The notes under the pieces were generated by a model. It was given only the letters and a program-made list of their open reading frames with translations, did not search any database and had not been told where the DNA came from. Shown piece after piece: positions 1-19,122 of a stretch of DNA of 38,073 nt. Within the stretch, counting starts at the first letter, position 1. Each line of letters starts with the position of its first letter. The translations under genes were made by a program, and so were the position numbers. This DNA comes from Lewinellaceae bacterium (GTDB lineage: Bacteria > Bacteroidota > Bacteroidia > Chitinophagales > Saprospiraceae): the NCBI GenBank assembly GCA_947459655.1, contig CANHEE010000015.1:1-38073 (forward strand). The letters are read 5' to 3'.

Positions 1-3000
1 GGCGTAGTCTACCTCCTGGGCTTCGAGGCCCGTAACAAGTAAATCGTTGGCCACAACATTGAGCAATTTCTCAGGAATAAGCATATCGATACCTGCCATC
101 ATGTCAACAAATGCCTTGTTGTCAACACTTTGCAGGGACATTGTATCTGAAGTTGGCGCAGCGAAAATGGCTTCACCACGTCCTGCAGCATCGATGTTCA
201 GTGCTTTTGCTCCCTTACAGATGTTAAATTTGCCCTCAAAATTGACTTTGCCACTCACATTCTGAAGTACCAAAAGATTGCCCCTTCTCACTTTTGAAGG
301 ATCATTTACTTTGGATGAGTCCCCAAATAAAAATTGATCGGTTTTGCTATTGTATTTGAGCAAGCCACGAGTATCTATGATTGCCCTGTCTTTTCTGGCG
401 TACAACTGCATCATCGCACTGGGATAGGCGGCCGAACTTTCCTTACTGATGAACAGACCGGTGCGCATTGGCTCTCCTGCATAATTTTTAGGCTCATCGA
501 ATGGAATAGCCAGATCCTTTTTGTCCGCTTCACAGTTTATGCTAAACCATTCCTTGTAAGGTAGTTTGGGCGCATTCAAACTTGCAAAGCCCTCAAACTT
601 TAGGTTTCTTGATGAGGCAAAAAGACTGATCTTTCCCCTGTAATCAATTTTTTGATCGATCAAAAAGCTATCCTTTTCTTCAACCTCACCAGTAGCTCGG
701 GTCTCGGTTCTCTTCTCACTGCTCTGTCCCTTTCCTACCCTTGCACCAACAATATTGGAAAAAAGAATTTCCTGTTTTCGGTTGCCAATTGGGTAATCGT
801 AATATCCCGTTGCTGTGTAATTTTTTCGTCCTTTAATATCAACAGTTGCCCTATTTATGATATGGTATTTATTGACTGTATCTGCAACAATCTGCGCATT
901 CTCCAATGTGCTCATGATTCCACCCGGCTGAATGTCTACATTGCCTTTTTCTGTGTAAATGAACGCATCGCAGGACTGGATAAATGGTACTCCTCCGATT
1001 TTCAAAGCGTAGGTTTTCAAATTATAGAAAGCTGATTTACCTCTGAACGTAAGAGAATCCTGAGCAGGATCGGTAGTCTGAAATGTCGCTAGTTTGTCTT
1101 TGTCTGTTTTGAAATCGACGGTTTCATTTTTCATGTCCCACGTAAATTCAGACATGGAGGTCTGGTATTTGTTGTATGGCATAGAGGTGGAAATCTCATC
1201 GGTATTGGCCTTAAATTTACCAATCTGCTCATCGAAGTCGACCTTTCCACGGATGTTGTGGGTATCAAAGGCAAAGACATCCTCACCGATTACCTTAATT
1301 TTCATATCCATCGTATCCGATTGGGCGGAATAGGCTCCAAATGATAGCAATTTTGATGACATGGTGCCTTTTGACCAGTCAAATAGTCCCCGCCCTTTTA
1401 CTCCTTTTGGCGTGAGAATGAGCATTCCCTTCAGCGTATGGTCAGCCGCCTTGAAAAGATCAAATGGCTTTTCTTTTGTCGTGATATACATACTGTCTTT
1501 GTAGGGACGCCAATTGATGTTAACATCTGTTCCCATTACTTGCGGAACCTGTATAGCCGATTTGCGGTCCTCTGTGAGGTCAAATCGCTTTGCGGAAGCC
1601 AGCATTTGCTTCGGCTTGAAAATAATGTCTTCAGAATTGATTTCTGCTCCGAGGTAATTAACCTGACCTTTACCCAAGAAACCGGCATTGCTGAGAAAAA
1701 TCTGCCCCTTGTAATTTCCCTTTCCGGTATAAGCGGGATATCCTGCTGCAGGTGTCTGGGTGATAAAACCAAGTGAAGTATCTGCTTGAATGTTTATGGT
1801 TTCAGGGAAATCCGGAAAAATATTTGAAGAAACCATCGTTCCTTTAAACTGTATATCGTCCTTCACATAATTGTCCATGTGGTTGAAACTGAACTTATCA
1901 AGTGTAAAGTAAAACGAATCGCGACGGTAAACACCGTTCATAATTTTTCCGTCGTCGTAAAAGACATATGCATTACCACGGCTCTGGAAGGAAGGAAACA
2001 ATGGAATATCATCTCTTCCCGATTTGTTGTTGGGTGCATCTATGAGCACTACTCCTGTTGTATTTTCAATTCGGGAATTGATGCCTTTTGCTATGGGCTC
2101 ACCTTCAGGTGTTTTTTCACCTGTAGGGATAAACAAATCAAAAAATTTGACGGAATCCATCTCCACCTGAAATTTATTATAGTCGAAATGGTAGCCTTTA
2201 CCTGTTAACACACCAAATCCTGAATACAGCCTTCCGTCTAGGTCCATATCACGATTTTCCTTCATCACGAGCTTCTGGTTGTCAGGTCTGATGCCTACCT
2301 TTTGCCTGGAGCTAAACTGAAGACTACTCACACCCAGCATAGACATTTTCTTGTCTTTTAGGTTAAAAGACATATTTGATTTGTCTGTTTCAGAAACAAT
2401 TTTCAGTACATCATAATCCACCTTTTTCAAACTGGCATTGGCATAATGCATCACCTTTTCCTTAATGATGACGCGTTCTTTGTCTGCATCATAATCGATA
2501 AACCCCTTTGATACTAGATCGTATAAAAGTGTATTGATGGACTGAATATCAAAATTTGGATTCAAAGCTTTTGCAACAACAGTCGCGTCGAGGTCATATG
2601 AGCGTTCGCGTTCGGCGAGTAATTTCAATACAGCAACGGGGTTGGTACTGGCAATCGACTGCAGTTTGCGGTACTCCGTTTCATCAAAATACTTGAATGA
2701 CTCAAGCTGCACTTTATTGGCAACATTGCTCAGGGAAAACTTCCTTTCGCCAATGACAATCGAATCCTTATCGAGATACCAGTCCAAATTGTTGCAGTCT
2801 ATCAAAGATTTGTGGAATGAGTCGGAAAATGGATTTCTGTCAGAACCGCGCTCACCACGGGTAAGGTGCAACTCTCGCTTCACTACGTCAAATTTAAAAT
2901 TGACGGATGGGTGAAATATGGAGTCCGTTCCGACATATATGACAGACTGCACACGTTCACCAGCAACAAGTTCTCCCTTTCTAATGGCAAAACCTTCGGC

Positions 3001-4008
3001 AACCGCTTTGAATTTTAGGTTCTGCTTTTCATCCAGGATATTGATCTGAGCCTTTACTTTTTTGGATCCATAGCCACGCACAGTTGTGCCCTCCAGCCTG
3101 AAACCACCAACAAATTCTACACCTTGCCCAAGGTTTTTGATTTTTAGTACAGCCTCAGCAGACCTGAATCGCGGGTATGATGCTTCGTTTCTATTTTCGG
3201 TAACTAATTTGTCCTCGAAACTACCGCTGATGTCTCCCTCTGGAAAAAGGGTTGGATAATGCAGAAAACCCTTTTCGATTTCATAGCCCCCTTTTTTCAT
3301 TTCAATGACATAGTCGCCTTCAAACTTACAGTAAACATCTTTAAGCGCAAACCTATCCCACTGTGCCTTCCCGTTTTGTCCTCTAAAAATCTGCTCTAGT
3401 GGATAAAATTTACCACCGGTGTCGTAGATAAAAATGGAATCTTTCTTGTTTTTACACACCAGATTCAGTTTATCGTAAACAATGAATGGAGCTTTATTTT
3501 CATATTTCAATTCAAAAACATTGGTTCCGGCCATCCAGATTGTACCACCGTCACTTAATCGAAGTGCATTTTTATCAAAAAAATCAAAAGAGAAACTCAG
3601 GAAAGTCTGAACAGGAGTGAGTTTTCTTTTTTCAATATCTTTGAGCATGGCACTTACAACCTCATGCCAGCGGATAAAACGCTTTTCGCCAAATTCGCCT
3701 TTTTTTATTGCCTGCAAAGTTCTCAGATAGTCTTTGAAAAACGGATTGGGTGTCAGTTTTTGCGTCAACATTTCATTTGACAACTCAATGATTTTAGCAA
3801 TTTCGTTTTCTGAAAACGCCTCTGATTTCCATTGCTTTTTAAAGGTCTGATACAAGTCTTCCATCTCAGTTGTTTTACTTACTGTGATGAAATCTTCCAT
3901 CTGTTTGATAAACTCACCCTTGTCGCTTGAAAACTTATCAATGCGGGTCTGCGCTGATATTGCAGAGAAAAACAAACCAAAACCAAGTAGTATTGAAAAT
4001 CGTAACAT
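1..4008 (-). CDS. Giant exported protein of unknown function, C-terminus beyond the window
   Basis: An uninterrupted minus-strand frame starts at ATG 4008 and stays open to base 1, giving 1336 codons with no stop, so the C-terminus lies outside the window. The first 20 residues (MLRFSILLGFG..., ending AISAQ) look like a Sec signal peptide, so export to the periplasm or outer membrane is likely. After about 400 mixed residues comes a short helical stretch (about 450-515), then a long beta-rich region of alternating polar and hydrophobic residues. That region has recurring phrases of the GKGNYKG, GKGQVNY and VKGRGLFDW kind, reminiscent of beta-taco or AsmA/LptA-like proteins; this likeness is only an impression. 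A charged insert (SSEKRTETRATGEVEEKD) sits near residue 1100. There are no catalytic motifs I recognise. It lies 123 bases downstream of prmA on the same strand, with no clear promoter between. I do not recognise the family; confidence applies to the gene being real. Confidence 0.9.
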   Translation of the reverse strand, partial: MLRFSILLGFGLFFSAISAQTRIDKFSSDKGEFIKQMEDFITVSKTTEMEDLYQTFKKQWKSEAFSENEIAKIIELSNEMLTQKLTPNPFFKDYLRTLQAIKKGEFGEKRFIRWHEVVSAMLKDIEKRKLTPVQTFLSFSFDFFDKNALRLSDGGTIWMAGTNVFELKYENKAPFIVYDKLNLVCKNKKDSIFIYDTGGKFYPLEQIFRGQNGKAQWDRFALKDVYCKFEGDYVIEMKKGGYEIEKGFLHYPTLFPEGDISGSFEDKLVTENRNEASYPRFRSAEAVLKIKNLGQGVEFVGGFRLEGTTVRGYGSKKVKAQINILDEKQNLKFKAVAEGFAIRKGELVAGERVQSVIYVGTDSIFHPSVNFKFDVVKRELHLTRGERGSDRNPFSDSFHKSLIDCNNLDWYLDKDSIVIGERKFSLSNVANKVQLESFKYFDETEYRKLQSIASTNPVAVLKLLAERERSYDLDATVVAKALNPNFDIQSINTLLYDLVSKGFIDYDADKERVIIKEKVMHYANASLKKVDYDVLKIVSETDKSNMSFNLKDKKMSMLGVSSLQFSSRQKVGIRPDNQKLVMKENRDMDLDGRLYSGFGVLTGKGYHFDYNKFQVEMDSVKFFDLFIPTGEKTPEGEPIAKGINSRIENTTGVVLIDAPNNKSGRDDIPLFPSFQSRGNAYVFYDDGKIMNGVYRRDSFYFTLDKFSFNHMDNYVKDDIQFKGTMVSSNIFPDFPETINIQADTSLGFITQTPAAGYPAYTGKGNYKGQIFLSNAGFLGKGQVNYLGAEINSEDIIFKPKQMLASAKRFDLTEDRKSAIQVPQVMGTDVNINWRPYKDSMYITTKEKPFDLFKAADHTLKGMLILTPKGVKGRGLFDWSKGTMSSKLLSFGAYSAQSDTMDMKIKVIGEDVFAFDTHNIRGKVDFDEQIGKFKANTDEISTSMPYNKYQTSMSEFTWDMKNETVDFKTDKDKLATFQTTDPAQDSLTFRGKSAFYNLKTYALKIGGVPFIQSCDAFIYTEKGNVDIQPGGIMSTLENAQIVADTVNKYHIINRATVDIKGRKNYTATGYYDYPIGNRKQEILFSNIVGARVGKGQSSEKRTETRATGEVEEKDSFLIDQKIDYRGKISLFASSRNLKFEGFASLNAPKLPYKEWFSINCEADKKDLAIPFDEPKNYAGEPMRTGLFISKESSAAYPSAMMQLYARKDRAIIDTRGLLKYNSKTDQFLFGDSSKVNDPSKVRRGNLLVLQNVSGKVNFEGKFNICKGAKALNIDAAGRGEAIFAAPTSDTMSLQSVDNKAFVDMMAGIDMLIPEKLLNVVANDLLVTGLEAQEVDYA

Positions 4009-4131
4009 TAATAATTGAGAGTTAGTGATTAGAAACCAAGCCAATTAGAAAAATTCATTCAGGGTTTTGTTCCCAACGCAGGTATTTTGAAAAATATTTT
4101 GTTAGATATTGACGAAGAGCGCTCATTTTAA

Positions 4132-4974
4132 TCAAATGTCCGTCAGTTGTTTCTCCGCACGAATGCTAATCCAATCTCCTTCCTTCATGGTATTCTGGTA
4201 TACCAATCCATTTTGCAGGAGTTCATTTTTAACATGCATTTCATCAGAGCCCAAAAAACCAGAAATAATAAGCTGCCCACCGGGAACCAATTTTTCCCTG
4301 AGGGTTTGCAACGACGACACAACAATATTGCGGTTGATATTGGCAAGTATGACATCGAAGTCTCCGTAGTGGACGTCAAGGAGTGTACCATGAATGGACT
4401 TTACCTGCGGAGTGGAATTCATCTCTGCATTTCTTAAGCAACTTTCAAAGGCCGGCCATTCGTTGTCCACTGCAATGACCTCTGTAGCACCCATTTTTGA
4501 AGCGAGAATGGACAAAACCGCAGTTCCGCATCCAAAATCAAAAACACGTTTGTTTAAGAAGTGATTTTTGCGCATTTGCTGTATCATCAGTCGGGTTGTC
4601 TCGTGATGTCCTGTTCCGAAAGCCATATTGGGTTCAATAACGATTTCGTAGTGGACATTTTTCATCGGCTCGTGAAAATCTGCCCGAATTGCGCAGAAGT
4701 CATCTATTTGTAAGGGCTGAAAACCTGACTCCCATAATTCATTCCAGTTTTGAGACTCAATTTCCTGCATACTACATTTAATTTGCAACTGACCATGTAA
4801 TCTCTTTACTTCTGCCTCTATTCCTTCGTTGTAGTCTGTAACTCTAATGTACGCACTTATACCATCCTGATGTTCTTCAAAAGTATCAAAAGGCAAATCA
4901 CTCAGCAATGCAATAATGATTTCATTTAGCTCAGGATTGTTGTCAGTACGTATACAGTAGTAGTTATTGTTCAA
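4132..4974 (-). CDS. prmA: Ribosomal protein L11 methyltransferase PrmA
   Basis: PrmA transfers methyl groups from S-adenosylmethionine to ribosomal protein L11 in the cytoplasm. The 280-residue product shows the PrmA hallmark AFGTGHHETT (about residues 118-127), followed by the SAM-binding motif FDFGCGTAVLSIL (about 145-157) and the ILANINRN active-site segment near residue 210. GCGTAVL, rather than GCGTGVL, is to my knowledge a normal variant in this phylum. The N-terminal substrate domain is shorter and more divergent than in E. coli. The start is a TTG at 4974. No ATG lies between it and the pgk stop, and the frame is continuous with that of pgk across the pgk TAA (57 bases upstream), so TTG is the best start, though not certain. 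Gene order and spacing suggest cotranscription with pgk. Confidence 0.93.
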   Translation of the reverse strand: MNNNYYCIRTDNNPELNEIIIALLSDLPFDTFEEHQDGISAYIRVTDYNEGIEAEVKRLHGQLQIKCSMQEIESQNWNELWESGFQPLQIDDFCAIRADFHEPMKNVHYEIVIEPNMAFGTGHHETTRLMIQQMRKNHFLNKRVFDFGCGTAVLSILASKMGATEVIAVDNEWPAFESCLRNAEMNSTPQVKSIHGTLLDVHYGDFDVILANINRNIVVSSLQTLREKLVPGGQLIISGFLGSDEMHVKNELLQNGLVYQNTMKEGDWISIRAEKQLTDI

Positions 4975-6314: not shown

Positions 6315-7256
6315 AATTGCATGCTCCATTTTTCGTTGGCAAAACACTTCAGCCATCATACAACGAACTGAGCCCCCACCGTATTTTTCAATGGTATAAA
6401 TGGGTACAGTGAGTATTTTACAGTGTTTTTTAATCTGTGCTATCTGATGGTCACTCAAAGATTTACATGCCTGCTCGGACATGACGAGATATCTTTCACC
6501 GGCATCATTTCTGACCTGCAGCATGTTACCTGCAAAATGCATCATCTGATGCATACTGATTTCAACAATTTCTTTTTGTGTATCCGTTAGTGTAGCAACG
6601 ATTAGTTCTCGTTCTGAAATGTCCGGAATAGTATCCAAACATATGACACAGAAAGATTCTCCGAGTGCCATCATCACGTTGGTGTGATAGATTTCTTTAC
6701 CCTGACCATCAGTTGCACTGAAAACAATCTTTTTAAAATCGGTAACCTGACAAAAACGATCCAATATTCTCTCATCGGTTCGCGGACTAAGACAGGCATA
6801 GACTATTTTATTTTGGCGATCAAAAATCATTGAGCCGGTACCTTCCAAAAAGCGGTTTTCTGATTCAGCGGTCTCAAGGTGCACCCATTGATCAGTTACG
6901 AACTCAGATTTTATCAGATTGATGATGGATTCCTGTCTTTCCAGTCTGCGCACAGGCGCATACATGGGATAAGTTATGATGGTACCGTCCTGATGAAAAC
7001 TCACCCAGTTGTTGGGAAAAATGGCATCAGTTTTCACCGGACTTGCGCTGTCTTCTGCAACAATTACATGTACACCGGCGTCTTTGAGTTGTCGAACAAA
7101 AGCGTCAAATTCTGCTACTGCCGCCTTTTTGATTTCCGTTACTGATTTGCTGGTATCATTTGTCTGAAAAGCATTGCTTTCTGCCGTCTCCTCATTGAAT
7201 CCGAAGTTGGCAGGCCGTACCATCAGAATATGGTTTGAGGTTTGAAAAACTTCCAT
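6312..7256 (-). CDS. ctlX: Citrulline utilization hydrolase CtlX (amidinotransferase fold)
   Basis: CtlX belongs to the guanidino-group-modifying fold of arginine deiminases and amidinotransferases. Its characterised members are reported to hydrolyse citrulline, releasing ornithine. The 314 residues contain the family landmarks: FPNNWVSFH (about 80-88), the acidic EGTGSM loop (Glu138), the catalytic His191 in YHTNVMM, and the catalytic Cys299 in GGGSVRCMMAEVF near the C-terminus. All three expected active-site positions are present, so the enzyme should be active. In many Bacteroidota ctlX is near an ornithine aminotransferase; no such neighbour is here, and pgk lies downstream instead. ATG 7256 follows a minus-strand -7 box by about 25 bases. 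An older annotation would be amidinotransferase. The exact substrate in this organism is inferred from family membership. Confidence 0.88.
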   Translation of the reverse strand: MEVFQTSNHILMVRPANFGFNEETAESNAFQTNDTSKSVTEIKKAAVAEFDAFVRQLKDAGVHVIVAEDSASPVKTDAIFPNNWVSFHQDGTIITYPMYAPVRRLERQESIINLIKSEFVTDQWVHLETAESENRFLEGTGSMIFDRQNKIVYACLSPRTDERILDRFCQVTDFKKIVFSATDGQGKEIYHTNVMMALGESFCVICLDTIPDISERELIVATLTDTQKEIVEISMHQMMHFAGNMLQVRNDAGERYLVMSEQACKSLSDHQIAQIKKHCKILTVPIYTIEKYGGGSVRCMMAEVFCQRKMEHAI

Positions 7257-7279
7257 TTTAATCGCGTTGTTGAGGTGGG

Positions 7280-7287
7280 CAAATATA
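7280..7287 (-). promoter_or_regulatory. -7 promoter box for ctlX
   Basis: On the minus strand this reads TATATTTG followed by CCC, an exact match to the Bacteroidota -7 consensus TAnnTTTG. It is 24 bases upstream of the ctlX ATG. No TTG is present at the usual -33 distance, so support is from the -7 box only. Confidence 0.5.
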
Positions 7288-7321
7288 GAAAAAATACTGA
7301 ACTGGAACGACGGAGAAGCAC

Positions 7322-7356
7322 AAAAAAACGCCGGTCTGCGCTGCAGGCCGGCGTTT
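7322..7356 (-). terminator. Rho-independent terminator of the DUF5689 lipoprotein gene
   Basis: Perfect 9-base GC-rich arms (AAACGCCGG at 7326-7334 and CCGGCGTTT at 7348-7356) enclose 13 bases. On the minus strand the stem is followed by seven T. It lies just after the stop of the lipoprotein gene and before the ctlX promoter. Confidence 0.9.
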
Positions 7357-7374
7357 GCAAATAGTACTTATCAA

Positions 7375-9417
7375 TCAATTGATGTCGTTTTCGCTTCTCA
7401 ACTGCAACTGGTAACCATTACCGACAGTCGCAGTACCTTTAAATTGTCCAACTATTGCCGTAACCGACTTTGTACCAACCGGTGGAACTGAACCGGCGAA
7501 AGTAGCTGCTGTAGCTGTAAAAAGGTCAATTTCTCCTGTTCCATCATTGAGTTTTATGGCTCCCAAAAATGAGGCAGCAGGAGGTATGGTGGCATTCTTA
7601 ACTTTTACCAGCGTAGACTCGTAATTTTCAAAACCGGCAATCAAATCTGCAATCGTGATCTGCGTCGGATTTACCGTACCTGTTCCAGTCTTAGATGCAT
7701 TACCCAATGGAACTTTGTTGAGTTGAAGCAATTCGTTGTAAGTGCTCAGTTCCTGATTGGAGACGATGACTTTTACTTCATCTCCAAGTGAAAAGTTATG
7801 CACTGCACTGAAACGCACCAGAATTCCTTTTCCATCGGCACCTTGTATGACAACGTTCTGCGCATTGAGATTTTTGGTATCCTTGTCAGATATTACAATT
7901 CCCTTGATAAAGCTATTGGCCGGTGCCTTGGTTGCAGTACCAGCATAGAGAGCGCGAATTTCACCAATGGATTTTTGGGTCTCATTTCCTCCCGTTCCAC
8001 CCCCGGTTCCACTTGTCACATCGGCAGCATTGCGCGGCTGGATTTGCAGGGTGGCATTGAACTGAGAGACAATTCCAACCACATTCACAACAGCGTTGGG
8101 AAGCGGAGTATTGGCAAATGATGCTGCAGATGTAGTGTACATTACTGCTCTTCCACCTGAAGCATCAGACAGATTTACAGAGCCACCAAACTTTGCAGTT
8201 GTAGATGCAGTAGCATCTACAACATTAACCAATGTAGACTCCATATCTTCAAAGCCGGATTCAAATTCCTTCAGAGTTACTTTCTTTGCTGTAACCGCCA
8301 AAGTTCCGATTTTTTTCGCATTAGATAGCGGTCCGGCACTAACCTGTAAAGCTCCGGCGTACTCACTTAGGGTTCCACCACCAACATTCACCTCCACCAG
8401 ATCGCCAAGCGCAAAAGAAGGAGCGGATGAAAAACGAACAATTATTCCCTTTCCATCATCTCCCTGCAAGACCAAATTCTGAGCTTGTATGTTTTTACCG
8501 TCTTTATCGGAGATGATAGAACCGACTATTTTGTTTCCCTTCTGAACTGCTGTCTGTCCGTTTGCGAATGCAGTCCTGAGAGACCCAATGCTAACAGTCG
8601 TACCACCACCGGTACCTCCACCGCAACGCGCATCAGCCATCTTCACATCTTCAGTGTTGCGGATGTAGAATTGATTATCTGTTCTGAAAACGGAATATAT
8701 TCCTGTTAATGTTCCTTTTCCTGCAGGTGTCTGATCGTTCGCAAAACTGCAGTATCCGCTTGTACGCAACAGAACAGCTAGTCCGTCACAATCCTCCACA
8801 TTCCTGTTTAGTGTTAGTTTACGGGCAGCATCTGCGTAGGTCTGTCCTGCATCAGCGTCCGAGAACTGCACATCTTTCAGTGTGACCAGCGTGCTGACCA
8901 TATCAGATGTTAATTCGCCTATTTTTACCACTTTTGGCGTGACAAACTGATTTCTCTCACCTTTGAACAAATAGTTTGGTATGAGCAACTCTTCGATATA
9001 TGCCAACTGATCGTTTCCATTTTTGTCCTTGCTAATTCCTCCTCCGAGTTGAATCAAGCCATTGTAGTCACCCAGGACAAGTCCCTTCAGTTTGATGTAA
9101 ACTTTTCTGCCAATCGGGTAATTGTTGTACAAACTATTTGCGTTCAATTTTACATCAATTCCCGCTGTAGCATCCTGAATGACAATGGTTTTGTAGTAAT
9201 TTCCTGACTGATCGTCTGCTACCACCACAGCTTCAATAATCCAATCTTCAGCAATCGTTTCAAAAGCACCCGTTGCATGTATTGCCTTCAGTTCTTTAAT
9301 GGTTTTGTTTGCAACAAGATTGGTAATTTTGCCTTCTGCAGGCGGTTCGTCAAACTCTTGCTTTACACATGAGAAAAGCAAGAGAGCGGCAAAAAGAAAA
9401 AGAGAAAATCTTTTCAT
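7375..9417 (-). CDS. DUF5689 lipoprotein with three tandem related units
   Basis: The 680-residue product starts with a lipoprotein signal (MKRFSLFLFAALLLFSC), with the lipidated Cys at position 17, so it is anchored to a membrane and probably surface-facing. Residues about 30-265 match what I know as the DUF5689 region. By eye, two further units follow at about 275-468 and 482-680, separated by Gly/Thr-rich linkers (CGGGTGGGTT and GTGGGTGG). All three units share the same order of phrases: a starting [ST]I[GK]ELR-like strand, a [VI]ISD turn, a [VL]VIQ strand with DGKGI, a GD-V-V strand, a STLV segment, a DGTG-like turn and a final RN-DV. This suggests OB-fold-like beta barrels. No catalytic residues are evident. 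DUF5689 proteins are often near TonB-dependent receptors or secreted nucleases, but no such partner is in this window. Function unknown; binding or adhesion is plausible. Confidence 0.85.
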   Translation of the reverse strand: MKRFSLFLFAALLLFSCVKQEFDEPPAEGKITNLVANKTIKELKAIHATGAFETIAEDWIIEAVVVADDQSGNYYKTIVIQDATAGIDVKLNANSLYNNYPIGRKVYIKLKGLVLGDYNGLIQLGGGISKDKNGNDQLAYIEELLIPNYLFKGERNQFVTPKVVKIGELTSDMVSTLVTLKDVQFSDADAGQTYADAARKLTLNRNVEDCDGLAVLLRTSGYCSFANDQTPAGKGTLTGIYSVFRTDNQFYIRNTEDVKMADARCGGGTGGGTTVSIGSLRTAFANGQTAVQKGNKIVGSIISDKDGKNIQAQNLVLQGDDGKGIIVRFSSAPSFALGDLVEVNVGGGTLSEYAGALQVSAGPLSNAKKIGTLAVTAKKVTLKEFESGFEDMESTLVNVVDATASTTAKFGGSVNLSDASGGRAVMYTTSAASFANTPLPNAVVNVVGIVSQFNATLQIQPRNAADVTSGTGGGTGGNETQKSIGEIRALYAGTATKAPANSFIKGIVISDKDTKNLNAQNVVIQGADGKGILVRFSAVHNFSLGDEVKVIVSNQELSTYNELLQLNKVPLGNASKTGTGTVNPTQITIADLIAGFENYESTLVKVKNATIPPAASFLGAIKLNDGTGEIDLFTATAATFAGSVPPVGTKSVTAIVGQFKGTATVGNGYQLQLRSENDIN

Positions 9418-9598
9418 TATGAGTATGTTAGTGATTACGAATTCATAAAAAAAACCTTACCTACCGACTAATGTAGAAACGGGTCTAATTTCGGCTACAA
9501 AGAAAAGACAAATTACTTATTTGAAAGGACTTTAATTGTAAAAATTGTTCGGCCGTATTTTTTTCAATAAATATTGAGACATGATCAAGAGGTTCAAC

Positions 9599-9634
9599 AA
9601 AAAAATCCCGAATATTTATAAAAAATATCCGGGA
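9599..9634 (-). terminator. Rho-independent terminator of icd
   Basis: Arms TCCCGAATATTT (9606-9617) and AAATATCCGGGA (9623-9634) pair over 12 positions with one G-U wobble. On the minus strand the stem is followed by a seven-T run (9605-9599). It lies 29 bases past the icd stop. Confidence 0.85.
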
Positions 9635-9662
9635 CTGCAATTCAACAATAAACGCTATGTTC

Positions 9663-10934
<1,272 letters not shown>

Positions 10935-10982
10935 AAAAATATGTTATACAGTGTATTTAAAAATGTTATTTAAAAATCGCGG

Positions 10983-10990
10983 CAAAGGTA
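10983..10990 (-). promoter_or_regulatory. -7 promoter box for icd
   Basis: The minus strand reads TACCTTTG followed by CCGCG, an exact TAnnTTTG match with the GC-rich extension seen at other promoters in this window. Transcription would begin about 40 bases before the icd ATG. No TTG at the -33 distance. Confidence 0.6.
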
Positions 10991-11030
10991 AGACAATTAA
11001 GGAATGAATTACCCCTATCTGCTCAATATT

Positions 11031-11585
11031 TTAATGTTTCTTGTGATTTCCGGACGTTTTATAGAGGATTTTGTAGGCATGAAGAATATTGCTTTCCCTA
11101 TTCTTCATTTGTTTGCCTCTAACGTAGTGCAGTGACTCTATCTGTCCGCCCGCATCAAGACTGATTCGAATTTGCAGCAGATAAAACCTTCTTGCTCTGA
11201 TGATTTCCGAGGCAGGCGCACCTGTTTTGAAATCGCTGTGGTAGAAGGTCAGTTCCTTCCATTTTTCCTGTTTAGAACCTTCGGTTTTTAATCCATAGTC
11301 CTCTTCCCATGAAAATTCTCCGTCGGGGGGGAGTTTTGCATGCAGCGTATCGATCATCGACCGGAAGGCTCCCCAGTCCATTGGAGCATACGGTTTGATT
11401 TTCCTGGAATTTCTAAGCATATCAGGTTCTCTTACCAGAAATGCCTTGGTTACCACAGATGCGGTGGCTCGCTCTGATTCGGTGTTTAGATTGCAGTCAA
11501 GTGTAAAAATACGCCACGGGCTTTGGGCTTTCAGCACACAACAACTACAAAACAAAATGAATGTAATACAAATAAAATATCTCAT
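11031..11585 (-). CDS. Small exported protein of unknown function
   Basis: This 184-residue protein begins with a typical signal peptide (MRYFICITFILF... ending VLKAQ), so it is probably periplasmic or surface-located. The mature part is soluble in composition, with many Lys and Arg residues towards the C-terminus. It contains no motif I recognise; Trp-rich phrases such as PMDWGAFRSMID and EFSWEEDYGL are visible. The C-terminal third (IRARRFYLLQIRISLD, HYVRGKQMKN) looks like paired beta strands. It lies 96 bases upstream of icd on the same strand, but the icd -7 box sits between them, so they are probably separate units. Upstream is a 326-base intergenic stretch shared with the divergent TerC-family gene. 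The intact signal peptide and clean length argue that it is a real gene. Confidence 0.75.
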   Translation of the reverse strand: MRYFICITFILFCSCCVLKAQSPWRIFTLDCNLNTESERATASVVTKAFLVREPDMLRNSRKIKPYAPMDWGAFRSMIDTLHAKLPPDGEFSWEEDYGLKTEGSKQEKWKELTFYHSDFKTGAPASEIIRARRFYLLQIRISLDAGGQIESLHYVRGKQMKNRESNILHAYKILYKTSGNHKKH

Positions 11586-11911
11586 TTGGAGAGGATTTCA
11601 CCTAATTAAAACACTAATGAATGATTTGCTAACGCAGGTCTGCATCAGCAAATTGTTTATGTATCAGGCGAGCCTTAATCGCAATGCGCATCATCCAATT
11701 TCGTTCCAAAAATGGACAGCAACCTTGAATAAAACGCTATGAGTGAAAAAGATTTACTCTATGTGGAAACCACATCCAACATTTCTCACAATTGCGTGTT
11801 TGGTTGCTATATTTAGGCTGAAAGTATATTTCTTTGCAGCAAAATACATAAAGTGATCCTACTGCCTTGCTGTGCAGACATCCCTTTTTCAACTCCATTT
11901 TCCAAAAAAAG
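11586..11911. other. Intergenic region between divergent genes, with a weak plus-strand promoter
   Basis: No gene is supported in these 326 bases. A candidate plus-strand promoter for the TerC-family gene is TTG at 11804-11806, a 22-base spacer, and TTTCTTTG at 11829-11836, which deviates from TAnnTTTG at one base but is followed by the GC-type extension CAGC. A small perfect hairpin ATGTGG/CCACAT lies at 11761-11775. I could not recognise a manganese riboswitch (yybP-ykoY type), which precedes some TerC genes in other phyla. Confidence 0.4.
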
Positions 11912-17736: not shown

Positions 17737-19122
17737 ATGTTGAAGAACACTGCTTTTTTTCCTAACGAGATACTGCTCATTGTACTGACAGGAATGCTCT
17801 GCTGCTGCACGATTTTCACTTCACTTAAGGCGCAGGAAATCAGAGAGTTAAAAAAAGGCGAATACATCATCCTTTACCCGGATGGTACACTAAGTGCCTA
17901 TGATGTTCTTAACCCAGTTCACAAACGCCTTCTTAAGGACTTTGAAGAGGGAAACATCAGAAATAAAAACCTGAAGCAAAAATCGGAGGTGACGACTCCA
18001 CTAATTTCAGACCCCGAAAAAAGAAAATTACACATCGCAGAAATGCTGCGAATGGTAAGTCTTGAGTTGGAAAAAGGAATAAAGGTAGATACTGCATTTC
18101 AGCAGCGGAGGACCATTGAAAAACGTTTCTGGAAAGAACAGAAAAATCGAAGACCTGATTTTGCAAAATCCAAGTCGCTCGCAAAAGCAGTACGCAAAGC
18201 AAGGTCAGTAGAAAAAAAGGCTATTCGCGAATTTCAAATCGTTTCCAAATCTTCGGCCCATGCAAGAACTGAACTGAAAAAATATCAGTTTGACGTATCA
18301 GGGCAGCCGCCCTATCAACCTCTGTATAAAAAAAAGAAATTGGTCTTCGCAGTTTCCTCAAGTGTCAATTACCTCGGGGTTAAAATTGCAGCTAAATTGA
18401 AGCCTGTGAAACGTTTAGCCATCAAGACAGCAGACTCTTCTTCAAGAATAATTGAAAAATCCAAGGTTTACGGCACTAGACTATTGAACTACAAAAAGAC
18501 TGCCCCCACGCCAATCAGAGCCGAAATTGTAAAAGCTCAGGAAGAAGTTTATGTTTTACCGGATAAAATAATACGTCTTAAGCCAGTTGATGATGTAATG
18601 CAAAATCCTCCGCTGGCGAGATGTAAAGTAATTTTCGAAGGAAAAGACGAGTTTTCTGGTAAATACCGCAAAGAGTTGAGTCCGGTGACTGTTTTCAGTT
18701 ACACCGACGTTTCCATGAAGAAATTCTATGAAAAAGATGACTTCCTGACCTGTGAGGCTTATTTTTCGGTGATCGAAAACAGTTACAAGTACCTCACTTT
18801 TCAGTTCACCATGGCTTCGGAAAATGTGCAGACCTCCTACGGGTGGCTGGAGAAGGACAATCTCATTCAAATTAGATTTCTGGACGGTAGTACATTGAAT
18901 CTTTACAATACGAGAACCGATAGAGGCACTGTGAATACCGCTACACACAGTACCAGTTACAGAGCATACTGTGTCATTGGATCAAGGGAGGAGAAAATGC
19001 TGCTGAATGCTGAAGCAGATGCCATTCGGGTACAGTGGAGCACGGGAACAGAAGATTACGAAATCTTTGATGTGGATATTTTTTCAGACCAGGTCCGATG
19101 CCTTACTGAAAAAACAAAATAG
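17737..19122 (+). CDS. Large basic exported protein of unknown function
   Basis: This 461-residue product starts with a hydrophobic segment (ILLIVLTGMLCCCTIFTSLKAQ) that looks like a signal peptide cleaved near residue 33. The mature N-terminus KKGEYIILYPDGTLSAYD resembles short beta motifs found in several surface proteins of this phylum. Residues about 110-190 are highly basic and helical (RTIEKRFWKEQKNRR, SLAKAVRKARSVEKKA), and the last 180 residues look beta-rich (DFLTCEAYFSVIENSYKYL, IQIRFLDGSTLNLYN). I do not recognise the family and see no enzyme motif. It leads an operon with miaE (9 bases downstream) and gpsA, from the strong promoter at 17672. The close spacing suggests cotranscription but says little about function. 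Confidence 0.75.
   Translation: MLKNTAFFPNEILLIVLTGMLCCCTIFTSLKAQEIRELKKGEYIILYPDGTLSAYDVLNPVHKRLLKDFEEGNIRNKNLKQKSEVTTPLISDPEKRKLHIAEMLRMVSLELEKGIKVDTAFQQRRTIEKRFWKEQKNRRPDFAKSKSLAKAVRKARSVEKKAIREFQIVSKSSAHARTELKKYQFDVSGQPPYQPLYKKKKLVFAVSSSVNYLGVKIAAKLKPVKRLAIKTADSSSRIIEKSKVYGTRLLNYKKTAPTPIRAEIVKAQEEVYVLPDKIIRLKPVDDVMQNPPLARCKVIFEGKDEFSGKYRKELSPVTVFSYTDVSMKKFYEKDDFLTCEAYFSVIENSYKYLTFQFTMASENVQTSYGWLEKDNLIQIRFLDGSTLNLYNTRTDRGTVNTATHSTSYRAYCVIGSREEKMLLNAEADAIRVQWSTGTEDYEIFDVDIFSDQVRCLTEKTK

Follow-up and report, generated by a model that had tools for sequence, protein, structure and literature searches.

A giant gene divided between two contigs

The stretch of DNA analysed here (38,073 bases, referred to below as the window) is the complete contig CANHEE010000015.1 of assembly GCA_947459655.1, from a Lewinellaceae bacterium. 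Its left end is occupied by the 5' part of a very large gene, here called the giant gene, whose product belongs to a real, conserved and unnamed protein family and, judged by its predicted fold, is a much enlarged variant of the bridge fold of the Lpt proteins. The gene and its signal peptide are placed as follows.

1..4008, minus strand: giant gene, 5' part (1,336 codons), continuing on contig C70 of the same genome (15711-16223, minus strand)
3949..4008, minus strand: signal peptide, residues 1-20, cleavage likely between A19 and Q20, no lipobox (sequence and hydropathy scan)

An earlier, sequence-only reading had described an open frame of at least 1,336 codons that leaves the window and begins with a clear signal peptide, and both statements held. 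The frame starts at an ATG at 4008 and reaches base 1 without a stop (1,336 codons, or 1,348 if counted from an upstream TTG). Since the window is an entire contig, the gene has been cut by the assembly. As that reading had proposed, the C-terminus was sought beyond the contig, and a search with the C-terminus of a homologue located the remainder (170 residues; E 3.1e-40) at the extreme end of C70. The gap between the two pieces, read by eye against homologue L003, is ~5 residues, giving a full-length protein of about 1,511 residues. A protein search of 40 genomes (its own and 39 relatives) found family matches in 32, the long ones at 28-52% identity; because long homologues are present in relatives, the frame did not arise by chance, and the gene is confirmed as real.

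By sequence and hydropathy, residues 1-20 (MLRFSILLGFGLFFSAISAQ) resemble a type I signal peptide. The sole 19-residue segment with a Kyte-Doolittle value of at least 1.6 in the window protein, i.e., the part encoded in the window, starts at residue 1 and is followed by the A19/Q20 site, and the protein is predicted to be exported with cleavage of this peptide. The hydropathy scan of the window protein found no later membrane-like segment, nor an N-terminal inner-membrane anchor of the kind that marks AsmA and TamB. No lipobox cysteine, the mark of an outer-membrane lipoprotein, was found in the window protein, and a lipobox-like pattern occurred in one of 75 homologues (L051). Pfam searches for a type IX C-terminal sorting domain gave no match in the window part (E<=10) or in the 170-residue C-terminal piece (E<=0.001). 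With neither sorting signal in the parts searched, the surface scaffold suggested by the sequence-only reading gained no support. Going by these sequence features, the protein appears to be secreted and soluble, with no membrane anchor, as expected of an LptA- or OstA-like protein.

Family and distribution

The window protein gave no match at E<=10 in Pfam, NCBIfam or PDB sequence searches, in agreement with the earlier statement that it has no recognised family. Among 18 diverse family members, searches of Pfam and NCBIfam returned scattered weak matches only, of which a TFIIE-alpha-type winged helix in two of the 18 (best E 0.0053, Pfam) made the most sense and agrees with the structural model described below; RIG-I_C matched weakly in one (E 0.0063). 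Family profiles searched against PDB likewise gave weak matches only, to a winged helix (1q1h, E 0.33) and to antibody chains (E 1.6-1.7). The searches made of the open-licence PMC literature listed no paper on the family.

The distribution across Bacteroidota, proposed earlier as a check, was followed by profile searches. The order gave matches in 152 of 298 genomes and a phylum-wide draw in 15 of 392, both figures counting the giant gene's own genome, and for the class the figure was 310 of 396; since these draws were sampled differently, the fractions are not comparable with one another. One family, f17, was absent from the 152 matching rows of the order search, and 14 f17 genomes in the phylum-wide draw had no match. 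Open frames of homologues were mostly about 1,450-1,800 residues long among the matches listed, and a few genomes held second copies (G016, and G015 in two pieces). Among named genomes, 372 homologous stretches were confirmed, and the best 80 of these, equal to 79 loci, were taken; most of the closest carried the label Saprospiraceae, Flavilitoribacter nigricans DSM 23189 among them. In the other class of the phylum that was searched, 3 of 293 genomes showed short stretches only (43-58 residues), which were not counted as members. One of these, at a contig edge (L157, on contig C32 of G938; 43 residues, E 5.2e-9), is possibly contamination or a remote relative. Genome G293, with one 50-residue match (E 1.2e-4), was rejected as a member outside the class when a better profile did not repeat the match.

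Two variations were seen within the family. In several genomes of families f23-f25 (L117-L126; frames of 1,575-1,857 residues), the N-terminal part (profile ~10-158) and the rest matched as separate stretches, and therefore an insertion lies between them. In some families the C-terminus carries a charged or proline-rich tail (L021, L026 and L029).

Predicted structure

Two AlphaFold2 (AF2) models were examined. Model A covers window residues 21-1200 (79 sequences; mean predicted local distance difference test, pLDDT, 89.9; predicted template modelling score, pTM, 0.62), and model B covers homologue L035 from the equivalent of window residue ~640 to the C-terminus (74 sequences; pLDDT 90.0; pTM 0.62), so that the two overlap along the family. 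The predicted order of domains is the signal peptide, six helices, a beta region, a winged helix, a beta rod to residue ~1,310 and an alpha/beta end domain. The parts located in the window, in the order of the protein, are as follows (LptD-N, N-terminal domain of LptD).

3571..3921, minus strand: N-terminal helical domain, residues 30-146, six helices (AF2 model A, model residues 10-126)
2689..3261, minus strand: first LptA/LptC/LptD-N-like beta unit, residues about 250-440 (VIA-align, model A)
2419..2685, minus strand: winged-helix insert, residues 442-530 (VIA-align and weak sequence matches)
2146..2385, minus strand: internal repeat A, residues about 542-621, the match reaching back to ~505 (hhalign within the family profile)
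1516..1758, minus strand: internal repeat B, residues 751-831, GKG-rich (hhalign)
1246..1482, minus strand: internal repeat B', residues 843-921, VKGRG (hhalign)
898..1446, minus strand: second LptA/LptC-like beta unit, residues about 855-1037 (VIA-align, models A and B)
748..1044, minus strand: internal repeat A', residues about 989-1087 (hhalign)

The nearest solved structures were Lpt proteins, found at two places. Over the first unit, VIA-align placed LptD (9a39, Z 13.1, model 230..536), LptA (2r1a, Z 11.8, root-mean-square deviation (rmsd) 2.9 over 121 residues, model 274..419) and LptC (6mit, Z 11.1). Over the second, model A matched LptC (4b54, Z 9.5, at 859..992) and LptA (8bss, Z 8.3, at 887..1017), and model B matched LptA (2r1a, Z 11.4, rmsd 2.6 over 120 residues), with LptC and LptH also matching. 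Among the listed rows with Z of at least 8, LptA, LptC, LptH or LptD accounted for 19 of 20 in model A and 10 of 10 in model B; this count includes 4q35, which we take to be LptD, and the model B row for 9a39 is uninformative (rmsd 38.9). The first rows from other proteins were the CPAP G-box (Z 8.4, rmsd 6.8) followed by winged helices (Z 6.7 and below) in model A, and 8glv (Z 6.1) in model B. In Foldseek, LptA and LptC chains were found with probability 0.99-1.00, a target template modelling (TM) score of 0.48-0.66 and E 0.03-0.12. The VIA-align and Foldseek lists bear little on large parts of either model. By prediction, then, an LptA-type beta-jellyroll fold occurs at two places and in two models (Z 8-13).

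In model A, seventy-nine strands of at least 3 residues were counted, and 55% of positions between residues 128 and 1180 lie in strands. LptA has 16 strands. Since the count is about five times that of LptA, a rod reaching across much of the periplasm is possible on this model. PMC6791001 draws the E. coli periplasm as 20 nm wide. The winged helix resembles MarR-type structures (7kym, Z 6.7; 2co5, Z 6.6), a likeness that, with Z under 8, may reflect no more than a common arrangement; because the LptD alignments extend past it, it seems to be inserted into a rod that goes on beyond it.

Self-comparison of the family profile found internal repeats. The pair B/B' (751-831 and 843-921) scored an hhalign probability of 61-73% in the whole profile and 92% between segments, and the pair A/A' (about 505-621 and 956-1087) 38-39% in the whole profile and 76-78% between separate segments, against at most 0.3% in a reversed-sequence control. 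The GKG and VKGRG phrases pointed out by the sequence-only reading are real and belong to the B/B' duplication. Because of these repeats, the rod probably grew by duplication.

Coexistence with Lpt and TamB genes

Sequence searches connected the family with neither Lpt nor TamB proteins. For the OstA/LptA/LptC signature (PF13100 and related), the window protein matched no Pfam family at E<=10 and the 18 members no Lpt-type family at E<=1, and no TamB (PF04357) or AsmA match was found in the window protein or the 18 members. Comparison by hhalign with two partial TamB sequences (985 and 988 residues, cut at locus ends) gave at most 0.6%, a weak test because both are truncated and because OstA compared with TamB likewise gave nothing.

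Matches above cut-off in the giant gene's own genome were LptF/G (two matches), OstA_2, LptD_2 and TamB, and LptC fell below threshold (E 9e-4, 19.7 bits). The idea that the giant protein replaces a part of Lpt was rejected on this account, and it is instead an added component. Across the 40 genomes, LptF/G was matched in 40, TamB in 39, LptD_2 in 38, OstA_2 and LptC in 37 each and the giant family in 32. Those without it are G002, G004, G007, G012, G013, G017, G019 and G024; of these, G019 had no TamB match. LptC was missed in G012, G024 and G037, and the first two lack the giant gene, numbers too few to interpret. There was no clear sign of an extra LptF/G permease paired with the giant gene, carriers and non-carriers alike having mostly 2-3 matches, some of them split.

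Genomic neighbourhood

The directly upstream neighbour in the window lies 123 bases from the giant gene on the same strand.

4132..4974, minus strand: prmA, ribosomal protein L11 methyltransferase (PF06325, E 8.7e-50)

Of the 79 named loci, 74 extend 400 nt or more upstream of the homologue, and 68 of these show the same neighbour there; a count based on open reading frames gave 63 of 79. Among loci from other genomes, where G006 was counted twice and flanks reached at most about 1.5 kb, the figure was 27 of 37. The linkage of prmA with the giant gene is old and gives no functional hint. No transporter gene was found among the scanned neighbours in the window (PrmA, PGK and four more). A scan of 3900-4300 for sigma-70-type promoters and terminators found none, Bacteroidota-type promoters being outside its reach.

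Downstream, 11 named loci (L073, L036 and nine more) carried a related, very large frame on the same strand, at a median distance of 100 bases; the longest of these measures 1,797 residues inside its locus. The frame that comes next on C70, on the giant gene's strand, encodes a PKD-domain protein. The contig of L033 that holds the giant gene's C-terminus also has two type IX cargo genes with Por_Secre_tail (6923-9451 and 9479-11620, plus strand), one of which carries a reprolysin-like peptidase domain. Elsewhere in the window, a 461-residue frame (17737-19122, plus strand; no Pfam match at E<=1e-5) sits between a tetrapyrrole-methylase-family gene and a miaE-family gene, and a 184-residue frame (11031-11585, minus strand) had no Pfam match at E<=0.001.

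Interpretation and alternative explanations

Because of the signal peptide, the lack of a further membrane-like segment in the window protein and the lack of a type IX tail, we read the giant protein as soluble and periplasmic. We give about an even chance to its being an LptA-like rod whose role is to carry or shield hydrophobic cargo, lipid or otherwise. In this mechanism, a protein of about 1,511 residues would be exported via its cleaved signal peptide, and its middle ~1,000 residues would form a long beta rod containing two or more LptA/LptC/LptD-N-type units, along with internal duplications that have since diverged. The winged-helix domain would be inserted in the rod, the helical domain would cap its N-terminus and the alpha/beta domain its C-terminus. 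On the model of LptA, LptC and LptD-N, the rod's hydrophobic interior, presumably an open groove, would most likely carry or shield a client on its way between the membranes, either a lipid (lipopolysaccharide, LPS, or a different lipid of the envelope) or some other hydrophobic client, and the end domains would dock the rod to partners. A role in lipid transport, as the sequence-only reading had suggested, is plausible.

Several observations weigh against this interpretation. The overall path of the rod is uncertain because the pTM is only 0.62, and the amphipathicity of its strands (41 strands of at least 6 residues in model A, 0.365 versus 0.258 for within-strand shuffles, a value reached by 1 of 2,000), which counts in favour of the rod, is expected of any beta-rich fold. 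By E-value the Foldseek rows for LptA and LptC are not significant, and the long LptD rows have large rmsd. Foldseek's lowest E-values went to teneurins, a Tc toxin chain, ApoB100 and Rhs proteins. The teneurin, Tc toxin and Rhs rows were set aside as relatives for their very low probability (mostly 0.1-0.4) and tiny TM-scores, as was ApoB100, a lipid-binding protein, for a TM-score of 0.11 despite a probability of 0.77. Comparison by hhalign with 10 OstA-like proteins gave probabilities under 1%, i.e., no sequence-profile relation, and the hydropathy scan found a membrane-like segment after residue 150 in 3 of 75 homologues. There are no lpt genes next to the giant gene in the window, where its neighbours are prmA and pgk. 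Furthermore, since all eight genomes without the giant gene keep OstA_2, LptD_2 and LptF/G matches, it is not needed for basic LPS export. Nor does it strictly track Lpt, because three carriers have no OstA_2 match, namely G030 and G033 (75 and 92% complete), which also have no LptD_2 match, and G008 (89%); these absences may be due to incomplete assemblies.

The same rod could instead act in the periplasm on outer-membrane proteins or secreted proteins, as their chaperone or assembly scaffold, holding unfolded beta proteins rather than lipids, as has been proposed for TamB. For the translocation and assembly module (TAM), PMC12045153 describes a proposal that outer-membrane proteins are chaperoned by long hydrophobic beta rods, and the winged-helix and end domains suggest contacts with other proteins. 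Considering that the nearest solved folds are those of Lpt proteins, and that 39 of 40 genomes, among them this one, have a separate TamB match, we regard a chaperone as somewhat unlikely. Alternatively, the protein could have a purely structural role in the envelope or at the surface and take no part in transport, its resemblance to LptA being due to convergent beta-jellyroll packing. This would account for the lack of a sequence match to Lpt proteins, and generic beta rods such as OspA do appear lower in the structure lists; yet Lpt proteins outrank almost every other row, at two places and in two models, the protein is conserved across many families and no surface-sorting signal was found by Pfam in the window part or C-terminal piece, so we consider this quite unlikely.

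The sequence-only reading had also hinted at an extended envelope protein of the AsmA/LptA style. The extended, exported beta protein stood, as did the LptA style in the predicted fold; the AsmA style did not, there being no anchor beyond the signal peptide, no Pfam TamB or AsmA match and no profile match to the two partial TamB sequences. A protein of the AsmA/TamB type (repeating beta-groove) that had diverged and shed its inner-membrane anchor would resemble the giant protein in length (most TamB frames in relatives run to about 1,555-1,780 residues), in its beta rod and in its repeats with G.G motifs. On the other hand, the giant protein's signal peptide is cleavable with no anchor, and its structure lists are topped by Lpt and not by TamB, the beta-taco/repeating beta-groove folds being missing from the VIA-align rows listed, which by itself excludes nothing. 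We therefore judge such an origin improbable.

Returning to the LptA-like rod for hydrophobic cargo, a bolder form holds that a single chain bridges the periplasm alone and transports an envelope lipid independently of Lpt, TAM and AsmA proteins, the gene being ancestral to an entire class of Bacteroidota and lost in some lineages; we think this unlikely. How non-LPS lipids pass across the periplasm is an open question, and a conserved, class-wide, unnamed protein of 1,500 residues with an Lpt-type predicted fold is a concrete candidate for such passage. It occurs in genomes that mostly also hold Lpt and TamB genes, and it lends itself to deletion, localisation and a test for bound lipid.

Comparison with known systems

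With TamB/AsmA-like proteins, the giant protein shares a similar length and, by prediction, the nature of a large periplasmic beta rod. Those proteins are anchored in the inner membrane, according to PMC12045153, and a TamB gene is separately present here. The OstA-like protein of Bacteroidota (PF13100, OstA_2) has a signal-like N-terminus and internal repeats as well and occurs in most of the same genomes, but it is only about 500-700 residues long (10 examined) and is encoded by a separate gene in this genome (C1, 93775-94254). The OstA-type beta-jellyroll of LptA, LptC and LptD-N forms the LPS bridge, and two units of the giant protein are predicted to share this fold (Z up to 13.1). The giant protein has a multi-strand rod like theirs and, in common with LptA, a secretion signal without an anchor. 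It has no sequence-profile match to these proteins and is not beside lpt genes in the window. Whereas the matched LptA chains have 132-141 residues, the giant protein is about ten times as long in a single chain, with a predicted winged-helix insert and helical and alpha/beta end domains.

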